Assembly: GCF_000373585.1 (NCBI RefSeq)
Contig: NZ_KB891918.1
Location: 154,124-218,123 of the forward strand
From: Streptomyces sp. MspMP-M5
Lineage (GTDB): Bacteria; Actinomycetota; Actinomycetes; Streptomycetales; Streptomycetaceae
Direction: 5' to 3'
DNA: 64,000 nucleotides
The notes beneath the pieces were generated by a model. That model saw only the letters and a program-made list of their open reading frames with translations. It had not been told where the DNA came from and did no database searches. Made by a program: the position numbers and the translations under genes. Below, piece after piece: positions 49,164 to 52,462 of this stretch. Every line of letters begins with the position of its first letter. Positions within the stretch are counted from its first letter, which is position 1.

Positions 49164-50030
49164 ATGACGCCTCAACCACCGGAAAACCGGGACAAAGAAG
49201 CCGGTCGCTGGAGCGATCTGGGCCGCCCGCCGCTGAACGCCACTGCGCTGCGCCGGGCCCTCGTCCGCCCCGGCTCGCTCTGGTCCTCACTGGACGTCGT
49301 TCCCGCCACCGGGTCCACCAACACCGACCTCGCCGAGCGGGCGGCGGCCGGCGGGCTGCGCGAAGGGACCGTCCTCGTCGCCGAGGAGCAGTCCGCCGCC
49401 CGCGGCCGGCTGGACCGCCGCTGGTCGGCGCCGCCGCGCTCCGGCCTCTTCGTCTCCGTCTACCTCACGCCGGCCGTGCCGCCGGCGCGCTGGGGCTGGC
49501 TGCCGCTGCTCGCCGGGGTGGCCACGGCCGCCGCGCTCGCCCGCACCGCCGGCGTCGACACCTCGCTGAAGTGGCCCAACGACCTGCTGGTCACGGTGGA
49601 CGGCGCGGAACGGAAGGCCGGCGGCATCCTCGCCGAACGCGCCGGCGACGGCGTCGTCCTCGGCATCGGCCTCAACGTCTCGCTCACCGCCGACGAACTC
49701 CCCGTCCCCACCGCCGGGTCGCTCGCCCTCGCGGGCGCCGCCAACACCGACCGGGACCCGCTGCTGCGGGCCGTGCTCCGCTCCCTGGAGGAGTGGTACG
49801 GCGAATGGCAGGCGGCGGACGGGGACCCGGCGGGGTGCCGGCTGCAGGGGGCGTATGCGGCGGGGTGCGCGACGCTGGGGCGGAAGGTGCGGGCGTTGCT
49901 GCCGGGCGACCGCTCGATCGAGGGCGAGGCGGTCGCGCTCGACGCGGACGGACGACTCGTGCTGGCCACGGCGGACGGGGTCCAACAGCCGGTGGACGCC
50001 GGGGACATCGTGCATCTGCGCCCGGCGTAG
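49164..50030 (+). CDS. birA: Biotin-[acetyl-CoA-carboxylase] ligase
   Basis: Attaches biotin to the Lys of the BCCP domain of AccA-type subunits. The 288 residues contain [17 protein letters not shown] near residue 37, the adenylate loop [20 protein letters not shown] near 75, LKWPNDLLV near 134, KAGGILAE near 151 and a C-terminal SH3-like domain. There is no N-terminal DNA-binding HTH, so it is a mono-functional ligase without the E. coli repressor role. ATG at 49164 follows TAGGCT by 6 nt, so it may be leaderless. Divergent from pccB, the partner pathway gene. Confidence 0.95.
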
Positions 50031-50150
50031 GCTTTTTCTTCCCACGTTGTGGTGGCGGCGGGTTCCCATTCCGCCGGACCCTGGCGGCCTTGGGTTGCTC
50101 GCCGTGGCGGCGGAAGGTGTGTTTGTGGCCGCCCCACGTTGTCGGCTGCC

Positions 50151-50191
50151 GCCGGCGGGGCGCCGGCGGGGCGCCGGCGGGGCGCCGGCGG
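50151..50191 (+). repeat. 11-bp tandem repeat in left arm
   Basis: The unit GCCGGCGGGGC is repeated about 3.7 times. It is absent from the equivalent place in the right arm. Confidence 0.85.
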
Positions 50192-50874
50192 TTCGTGTGC
50201 GGCTGTGGTGGGGCGGAGGTGGCCTCGGCTTCCCGCCGTAGGGCGCGCGTCGTCCGCAGCCTCGGTGGGGGCGGGCGCTTGCGGCTTCCCGCCGTGGGTG
50301 GGGCCGGAGGGGCTGCCCCGGGGTACGTCCTCGGTGCGGGCGCATCTGCTCAGTCAATTGATGATTACCCCGGCGTTCGCTCCAGATCCTGCGGGCGCAC
50401 CCCGGGACATCCCCTCCGGCCTACGCCGTCGCCGACTCTCCCGCCACTTGGCACCAGACCGTCCCCCCGCCACAGCCGTACCGTCATCGGCGCCCGCGGG
50501 CCCGTCGCTAGCGCGCATGCGGCGCCAGGGTGGGAGTCCGGTCCGGGTCGGTCGCTCTCCCCCTACGGGGCGCCTCCTGGGGGCGCGTCCGTGTAGCCGA
50601 CTGCCAGCCCACGCATAGGCGAGCTCCCTAGGCGGCGAGGCCATAGGGAGGGCGGCGCGACCGCGTGGTTGCCAGCCGTAGAGACGGCCATCGCCCCGGA
50701 GAGCTGCACCCGGCCGCCTCACCTCAGGGGGCGCCTCGCCTAGCCGACCGGTACCGGGGCGGCGGGACAGTCGCCGACGGCGCCGGGTCGGAGGGGATGT
50801 CCCGGAGCCCGCCCGCAGGATCTGGAGCGAACGCCGGGGCATTCGTCATCTGACGGAGCAGATGCGCCCGCACC

Positions 50875-50911
50875 GTGGGGGCACCTCCCGGCCGAAGGCT
50901 GGGGGAGGGTT
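50875..50911. repeat. Interspersed hairpin element in right arm
   Basis: About 37 bp, starting GTGGGGGCACCTCCCGGCCG and ending in GGGGGAGGGTT, with CCTCCC and GGGAGG arms. The left arm lacks it (CCCCGGGGTACGTCCTCGGTGCG instead). I recognise the sequence as a short repeat seen between genes in many Streptomyces genomes (from memory). Confidence 0.65.
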
Positions 50912-51169
50912 CCGGGGCAGCCCCTCCGACCCCACCCACCAGCCGTAGGCGAAGAGACCCCAGCCGACACGGCACCACGCAGCCGACAACGGGGGGCGGC
51001 CACAATCACACCCCCCGCCGCCACGGCGAGCAACCCGAAGCCGCCAGGGTCCGGCGGAATGGCCAGCTCACCGTAACCACAGCGTGGGATGCCAAACCAA
51101 GCGCAGCGACTACGTGAGGCAGAGCACACCTGCCGTATCGTTGAGGCGATCCGTCGCAGGGAGCGGATC

Positions 51170-52462
51170 ATGGGCGAGCAGCGAGATCGGAAGGGCCGTG
51201 CGCAGGGAACGGACAGGGAGCGGCCGGTGACCGCCGACGAGTCGGGAGCCACCCCGCGCGGCGCGGACGCCGGGGGCGAGGCGGTGGGGGAGGCCCCTGC
51301 GGGCGAGCCCGCGGGCGACCCCGCGAGGAGCGACGGCGCCACCGAGGGAGCCACCGGCGGCAGCGGCGAGAGCGGCAGCGATGAGAACGGCGACGGCGAC
51401 GGCCCGGAGAACGGCGAGAACAACATCGCCGTCAAGCTCGAACAACTCATCCTCGGGGCCGAGCGCCGCTACACGCCGTTCCAGGCGGCCCGCAGCGCTG
51501 GCGTCTCGATGGACCTCGCGGCCCGCTTCTGGCGGGCCATGGGCTTTGCGGACATCGGCCAGGTCAAGGCCCTCACCGAGGCCGATGTGCTGGCCCTGCG
51601 CCGGCTGGCCGGTCTCGTCGAGGCCGGGCTGCTGAGCGAGGCGATGGCGGTGCAGGTCGCCCGTTCCACCGGTCAGACCACGGCGCGGCTCGCCGACTGG
51701 CAGATCGACTCGTTCCTGGAGGGGCTGACCGAGCCCCAGGATTCCGGCCTGACCCGTACGGAGATCACGTACCCCCTGGTCGAGCTGCTGCTGCCGGAGC
51801 TGGAGGAGTTCCTGGTCTACGTCTGGCGGCGGCAGCTCGCCGCGGCCACCGGGCGCGTCGTCCAGGCCCAGGACGACGCGGAGATGGTGAACCGTCGGCT
51901 GGCCGTCGGCTTCGCCGACCTGGTCGGCTTCACCCGGCTGACCCGGCGGCTGGAGGAGGAGGAACTGGGCGAGCTGGTCGAGGCGTTCGAGACCACCGCC
52001 GCCGACCTGGTCGCCGCGCACGGCGGCCGGCTCATCAAGACCCTCGGCGACGAGGTGCTGTTCGCGGCGGACGACGCGGGCATCGCCGCGGAGATCGGGC
52101 TGCGGCTGATCGAGACGATGGGCCACGACGAGACGATGCCCGAGCTGCGGGTCGGCATCGCGTTCGGCACGGTCACGACGCGGATGGGCGACGTCTTCGG
52201 GACGACCGTCAATCTGGCCAGCCGGCTGACCTCGATAGCGCCGAAGGACACCGTGCTGGTGGACGAGGCGTTCGCGGAGGAGCTGGGGCGCACCGGTGAC
52301 GCCCCGGTGTCCGAGGCGGACGCCGCGGCCGCGGAGAAGGCCGCCCAGGAGGGCACCGGCAGCCCGCCGCCCCCGTACCGCTTCGCGCTGCAGCCGATGT
52401 GGCAGCGGCCGGTGCGCGGTCTGGGCGTCGTCGAGCCGTGGATGCTGACCCGGCGCGGATGA
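51170..52462 (+). CDS. cya: Adenylate cyclase, class III
   Basis: Makes cAMP, which in S. coelicolor acts in germination and development. About 430 residues: an acidic, Gly-rich disordered N-terminus to residue 85, a helical regulatory domain (LEQLILGAERRYTPFQAARS, then VSMDLAARFWRAMGFADIGQ) to about 235, and the C-terminal cyclase domain with FADLVGFTRLTRRL (first metal Asp) near 247, LIKTLGDEVLF near 288 (Lys and second metal Asp), and GTTVNLASRLTS (transition-state Asn) near 345. ATG at 51170 has AGGGAG upstream; the frame to 51089 runs into the inverted repeat. Soluble, as no membrane segment is seen. Confidence 0.92.
   Translation: MGEQRDRKGRAQGTDRERPVTADESGATPRGADAGGEAVGEAPAGEPAGDPARSDGATEGATGGSGESGSDENGDGDGPENGENNIAVKLEQLILGAERRYTPFQAARSAGVSMDLAARFWRAMGFADIGQVKALTEADVLALRRLAGLVEAGLLSEAMAVQVARSTGQTTARLADWQIDSFLEGLTEPQDSGLTRTEITYPLVELLLPELEEFLVYVWRRQLAAATGRVVQAQDDAEMVNRRLAVGFADLVGFTRLTRRLEEEELGELVEAFETTAADLVAAHGGRLIKTLGDEVLFAADDAGIAAEIGLRLIETMGHDETMPELRVGIAFGTVTTRMGDVFGTTVNLASRLTSIAPKDTVLVDEAFAEELGRTGDAPVSEADAAAAEKAAQEGTGSPPPPYRFALQPMWQRPVRGLGVVEPWMLTRRG

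Follow-up and report, generated by a model that had tools for sequence, protein, structure and literature searches.

The question raised by this locus in Streptomyces sp. MspMP-M5 is what fills the gap between birA and cya, and how it came to lie there. Within the window, by which we mean the whole 64000-nucleotide stretch analysed, the gap spans positions 50031–51169, and two facing copies of a repeat fill approx. 50036–51093 of it, beginning 6–8 bases beyond the birA stop codon (Table 1). According to the first-pass annotation, the region is free of genes and consists of an extended, imperfect inverted repeat. This was borne out when the left half was aligned locally, with gaps allowed, to the reverse-complemented right half: the score was 265, compared with a best score of 60 and a mean of 30 for tiled stretches of the rest of the window. 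The alignment joins 50040–50445 with 51089–50761, and the ungapped complementarity of the arms is 93% over the outer 84 bp, 84% over an inner block of 107 bp and 96% over a block of 28 bp. Over the outer ~110 bp we measured 87% identity, close to the ~88% claimed earlier, but the centre, previously put at ~275 bp, amounts to ~315 bp between the aligned arms. From outer end to core, arm L exceeds a single unit by ~105 bp, which makes the two arms unequal.

A huge hairpin had been proposed should the block be transcribed, and the predicted RNA fold of 1060 nt agrees with this at -819 kcal/mol (plus strand) and -830 kcal/mol (minus strand), whereas the predicted folds of 20 other stretches of equal length from the window range from -455 to -615 kcal/mol. 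The block is also gene-free as described, since a codon model calls genes only at 49164–50030 and from 51227; mechanical ORFs are present inside it. A coding gene or pseudogene was rejected on two grounds: gene calling yielded none in the block, and other intergenic gaps contain the unit as well. Neither unique arms nor a coding gene conserved in relatives was found, the outcome that the first-pass annotation had taken as refuting. In a search of the block against Rfam, no family exceeded its gathering cut-off, the best being mir-615 with 31.9 bits against a cut-off of 90.

Table 1. Features of the birA–cya region, in window coordinates
Feature	Position	Strand	Basis
birA (biotin protein ligase)	49164..50030	+	Pfam BPL_LplA_LipB and BPL_C
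Left unit (arm L), outer end facing birA	50036..50463	+	Matches to single copies
Left palindromic core	50302..50421	+	Core model and covariance model; predicted fold -72.8/-73.7 kcal/mol, z -5.1/-5.5
Tail (43 bp) of arm L, from the 3' coding end of an HATPase gene, reading TVWCQVAGESATA-stop	50421..50463	-	Identity to HATPase genes; HATPase_c_2
Centre between the units	50464..50691	.	Outside the coverage of the unit model
Right unit (arm R), outer end facing cya	50692..51093	-	Full-length unit match, 338 bits
Right palindromic core, with the 31-bp palindrome inside	50786..50931	-	Core model match; limits read from the sequence
31-bp REP-like palindrome within the right core	50877..50907	+	One exact occurrence in the window, none in shuffles
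Putative Crp/GlxR box of cya, GTG(N)8CAC, 20 bp beyond the element	51114..51127	+	Motif after the accessible part of PMC10033298
cya (adenylate cyclase)	51170..52462	+	Pfam Guanylate_cyc; start codon chosen, alternatives possible

The suggestion that the block represents an interspersed repeat present as two copies in inverted orientation, or else a non-autonomous element, was supported by three single copies elsewhere in the 8.6-Mb draft host genome (C49:67317-67688, C33:352011-352382 and C33:7042-7409, ~370 bp each) and by single or facing copies in relatives. By alignment, the unit is ~370–400 bp long and has three parts: an outer arm (~110 bp), a core that is a palindrome of ~120 bp, and a tail. 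The host genome holds five cores, and the predicted folds of single cores lie between -72.8 and -82.4 kcal/mol, with z values of -5.1 to -6.5 (two cores, two strands). At two further host loci (L047:2482-2534 and L048:2128-2179) the match is confined to the ~53 bp at the outer extremity of the unit, and these are perhaps remnants of lost copies. A 31-bp REP-like palindrome, or a longer form of it, occupies the same core position in 14 of 58 distinct cores. This palindrome is common in the genus and, among the matches listed for other Streptomyces, most of those to the block fall on it. A copy was also seen on an S. chartreusis plasmid, inside a TnpB-like gene and beside an IS200-type transposase gene. 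A plasmid or phage origin of the repeat was rejected, as just ~45 bp around the 31-bp palindrome occurred in two plasmid records and there was no phage match.

The core pattern was present in nine of 392 Streptomyces genomes and the reversed pattern in none. A covariance model built from 27 cores (E up to 1e-5) recovered the same nine; it scored nine candidates per genome under strict filters, so that the copy numbers are minimum values and weakly related members may have escaped it. In addition, a slightly longer pattern found 25 stretches in GTDB contigs from five named strains, namely NRRL F-4489, CT34, CB02959, S. albospinus and S. rhizoryzae. When genomes were ranked by cya protein score, the nine hosts stood above 16 non-hosts picked for comparison, and from this ranking the repeat looks like a clade-level family. 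A core-less unit from the sister genome G335, used as a query, matched in four of the nine genomes and not in G215, G414, G372, G318 or G064. In the open-access literature, as covered by listings and abstracts, we found no such family for Streptomyces, and a description outside it is possible.

Comparison of the birA–cya gap across relatives, which the first-pass annotation had proposed as a check, gave filled, partly filled and empty states depending on the genome. The gap of 1139 bp in the host corresponds to 447 bp with a left-type core in G335, whose cya is 98% identical with that of the host, and to 478 bp with a core in G414. In G289 the contig ends within an outer arm adjoining cya, and in NRRL F-4489 a core and outer arm lie between birA and cya. 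Gaps without a model match measured 309 bp (G318), 232 bp (G372), 217 bp (G199), 166 bp (G215) and 153 bp (G064), those of G372 and G318 perhaps retaining remnants judged by eye. Outside the clade, the gap was 34 bp in both G051 and G060, 51 bp in G006 and 548 bp, without a unit match, in G044. The gap value is unreliable for G009, G080, G049, G015, G068 and G058, where the cya alignment begins inside the protein, and G047 and G031 gave no value. Because repeat material occurs in this same gap in G335, G414, G289 and NRRL F-4489, an assembly artefact is an unlikely source of the block.

The same comparison bears on the effect on cAMP synthesis that the first-pass annotation thought possible, and on the idea that the block arose as a leader or insulator with a tuning role in this synthesis. 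Family material does occur in the gap of the host and of those four relatives, and the element appears able to change the cya promoter. Upstream of cya a motif, GTGAG(G/C)CAGAGCACACCTGCCGTATCGTTG, at 51114–51146, is conserved with minor differences in 12 of 20 loci from relatives. This motif includes the GTG(N)8CAC box, differs by one base in G318 and may be the cya promoter. Both motif and box are outside the element in the host. In NRRL F-4489 (L119) the outer end of the element directly abuts CCGTATCGTTG of the motif and the GTG(N)8CAC box is missing; as read from sequence, this strain is a natural change of the putative cya promoter. In S. tsukubaensis, according to the accessible part of PMC10033298, the cya promoter region was bound by GlxR, no shift was obtained with purified Crp, and cya expression changed when crp was overexpressed. 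However, the repeat unit also lies behind many unrelated genes, and the gap of G318, G372, G215, G199 and G064, all of the same clade, has no unit match. We therefore regard an origin of the block as a cya regulator as highly improbable.

The placement of the elements relative to genes was assessed with codon-model calls of neighbours on 44 fetched elements, which are a subset of all (G064 has 17 pattern matches, and five of its elements were included). Where both neighbours were called (n=38), 28 elements lie between tandem genes, ten between convergent genes and none between divergent genes; the automatic output was 27/10/1, the lone divergent case (L044) being an antisense call with the true gene on the other strand. 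Background gaps of at least 100 bp (n=119) comprised 64 tandem, 23 convergent and 32 divergent cases; these were taken from the window and longer contig loci, where a caller of this kind was run with a higher cut-off, and some of them contain elements. The elements are partly non-independent: judged by protein ends, no fewer than eight sites are shared by two or more hosts, e.g. those at the birA, meaB, EamA-type and asparaginase genes (Pfam). Six of ten distinct full outer ends start no more than ~8 bases past a stop codon and four do not; cores for which the protein-end reading found no outer gene were counted neither way. Behind the cores, no terminator tail rich in T was found; the terminator-like sites detected sit at both ends of the gap. 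This result and the four outer ends away from a stop codon speak against the explanation preferred below.

Two scored cores were present in 14 of the 44 fetched elements, in every case facing each other with outer ends outward, and some of the other 30 retain part of a second arm. For each of the 14 facing pairs, the tree placed other arms closer than the partner, which ranked 8 to 55; the tree thus gives no support to a local fold-back copy, and this candidate was rejected. In the window, arm R is nearest to a single copy in its own genome and arm L to a copy in G199; judged from the tree, the two arms are different sub-lineages. At the meaB site, which is filled in G064, G318, G414, G372 and NRRL F-4489, the meaB-side arms of G064 and G372 group with arms from their own genomes (supports 100/99 and 100/94); the corresponding grouping in G414 is weak (support 89/18). 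This pattern suggests either that arms evolve in concert inside a genome or that one site has been reached more than once.

How copies reach new sites is indicated by the tail of arm L. Read on the minus strand (50463–50421), it is identical at 42 of 43 positions to the 3' coding end of an HATPase_c_2 gene in G335 and at 41 of 43 to the counterpart of that gene in the host genome. The codons TVWC in the captured stretch are kept in seven other loci (G199, two of G215, G289, G372, G414 and G009), and the captured DNA therefore originated from the HATPase gene, which sets the direction of copying from the HATPase locus, or a copy of it, to the birA–cya gap. Judged from these identities, the captured end shows copying between loci. 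The HATPase gene of G335 is followed directly by a core, and the same gene in the host has no core and reads on for 11 residues. At the protein level, the host gene (L049:1840-2244) ends in ...GESATA plus these 11 residues and that of G335 (L154) in ...GESATA-stop ahead of the core. In G199 (L169) a different gene ends in ...SATA-stop ahead of a core. As the HATPase and G199 gene ends adjoin cores, the repeat tail can supply the last codons of a gene.

Copies at the same sites vary in presence and completeness between close relatives. At the sites of the three single copies in the host genome, the outer arm is kept in G335 and the core is absent, with nearly the same junctions at two of them by eye. 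Since the core occurs in a similar context in G064, we read the G335 state as core loss by slippage; a gain of the core in the host genome is possible.

The matching of the two stem sides was examined over 56 cores and 24 stem pairs against shuffles that ignore relatedness. Cells changed on both sides numbered 168, compared with a shuffled mean of 58; the covariation score was 0.323 compared with 0.114, and 96.9% of cells were paired compared with 84.4%. Sliding the partner along gave at most 59.6% paired cells and a covariation of 0.114. The mismatch between sides was 6.3% within one core and 22.3% between different cores, and left-side and right-side distances correlate at 0.91. Of the 24 pairs, 15 are variable; those with two-sided changes number 11, barely above the 9.6 of the shuffles (7 of the 500 shuffles attain 11), and additional pair types are less numerous than in shuffles (15 compared with 19). 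Tree parsimony gave equal counts of left, right and pair changes in four of ten pairs and unequal counts in six, for example 12, 12 and 16 at 15/180 and 9, 4 and 9 at 34/161. One-sided changes occur on the tree at 15/180, 34/161 and 35/160; these, and the limited number of variable pairs, count against the explanation that we favour. Template switching is described in yeast genes, in the accessible part of PMC8604942, as homogenizing inverted-repeat arms and inverting spacers. The joint stem changes fit template switching between the sides, and selection on structure would fit them too.

Selection of this kind would mean a structured RNA whose transcript needs the stem, e.g. as an RNase III substrate or a 3'-UTR regulator. 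The strong two-sided covariation and predicted folds with z values of about -5 to -6.5 are consistent with such an RNA, as is the lean among mismatch changes in the outer stem, where, with pair 39/156 left out, 15 are of the A.C type and one of the G.T type; these would be G.U wobbles on the strand opposite the unit. This lean is an outcome that plain template switching does not predict. However, T.G is the commonest state at 39/156 (42 of 55 cells) and, on the unit strand, almost every core has G.U at 100/138 and 101/137, two inner pairs of the predicted fold; both observations point the other way. Moreover, the search pattern disallowed T at stem column 163, where one of the 15 A.C changes lies. 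For these three reasons the strand behind the lean cannot be named. The absence of cores at the three sites in the sister genome G335 also speaks against selection for the stem, and we consider a structured RNA unlikely as the explanation.

A miniature element driven by a transposase, either a REP with its RAYT or a MITE that has terminal repeats and duplicates its target, would fit presence and absence at the same sites and outer ends that face outward in 14 of 14 facing pairs. Against it, the Y1 transposase model PF01797 had no match in eight of the nine hosts, some of which are drafts, and the match in the host genome is partial, covering the last 45 positions (77–121) of 121. A REP driven by a Y1 transposase was accordingly rejected, as no intact gene was found with PF01797 in the nine hosts. 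No target duplication was evident by eye at birA–cya, where empty sites are too diverged for base-exact comparison. A transposase-driven origin thus seems to us decidedly improbable.

We therefore favour, with a probability of roughly 70%, the reading that the block consists of two facing, unlike units (a heterodimer) of an intergenic palindromic repeat, restricted to one clade, that is copied ectopically, maintained by template switching and able to act as a 3'-end hairpin. The unit would spread by gene conversion or template-switch synthesis, either of which could carry flanking DNA along; its stem would stay palindromic mainly via template switching between the sides, and cores would be lost through slippage across short repeats. 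In the cell, the hairpin may form a 3'-end structure or roadblock that ends or stabilizes the birA transcript and separates birA from cya. A stabilizer or roadblock role of this type is proposed for REPs (PMC3733652, as far as its accessible text goes) and, by analogy, the position behind genes and the strong predicted hairpin would fit it here.

A more far-reaching version, which we regard as doubtful, is that these repeats are one lineage of large palindromes that move with no transposase of their own. They would be copied between loci by hairpin synthesis and template switching, which would also carry gene 3' ends along and keep both the stem palindromic and the copies within a genome alike; facing pairs would be heterodimers because near-identical facing arms are removed, and promoters would be rewired in some strains, as at cya in NRRL F-4489. 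For the heterodimer of a clade-limited repeat, the reading that we prefer, the filled, partly filled and empty sites in close Streptomyces offer a natural series for tracing, base by base, how long palindromes are copied and lost. The repeat also offers a test of whether the sides of a genomic hairpin are matched via selection on RNA or via replication itself. Locally, the element separates a cAMP gene, cya, from the gene preceding it, and the putative Crp box is gone in one relative.

Among known systems, the repeat works like REP/BIME. Like REP, BIME and REPIN sequences, as described in the accessible parts of PMC3733652 and PMC6006769, it is palindromic and extragenic, lies behind genes in tandem and convergent arrangement, occurs singly or as two inverted units of different sub-types and is present in several copies. 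REP/BIME elements are rarely placed between divergent genes, and the 28/10/0 distribution of the 38 elements found here, against 32 divergent gaps of 119 in the background, follows the same rule; the frequent inverted pairing of REP units likewise has its counterpart in 14 of 44 elements, all facing. We nevertheless do not file the repeat as REP/BIME, on account of unit size and foot tag, and because no intact RAYT was found with PF01797. REP units measure 20–40 bp in the accessible part of PMC3733652, whereas the core here spans ~115–120 columns, and the GTAG tag of REPs stands at the tail-side foot in only eight of 55 cores, where GCAG is found in 13. The few copies per genome (five cores in the host) and the captured gene end are further differences from REP, BIME and REPIN. 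With regard to RAYTs, published REP genomes can likewise be without them (PMC3733652, in its accessible part). The likeness extends, in other respects, to a second group of repeats. ERIC and NEMIS are intergenic, ~100 bp long, form long hairpins and are transcribed with genes. The present repeat resembles them in its intergenic position, its size of around 100 bp and its long predicted hairpin folds, but differs in that a facing pair of two sub-types is typical; ERIC and NEMIS are named as MITE-like hairpin repeats in the accessible part of PMC1590033. Finally, quasipalindrome correction, which is a process rather than a family, makes inverted-repeat arms alike (PMC8604942, accessible part), as the joint stem changes suggest for this repeat; it was described for yeast genes, and we infer it here across a Streptomyces repeat family.
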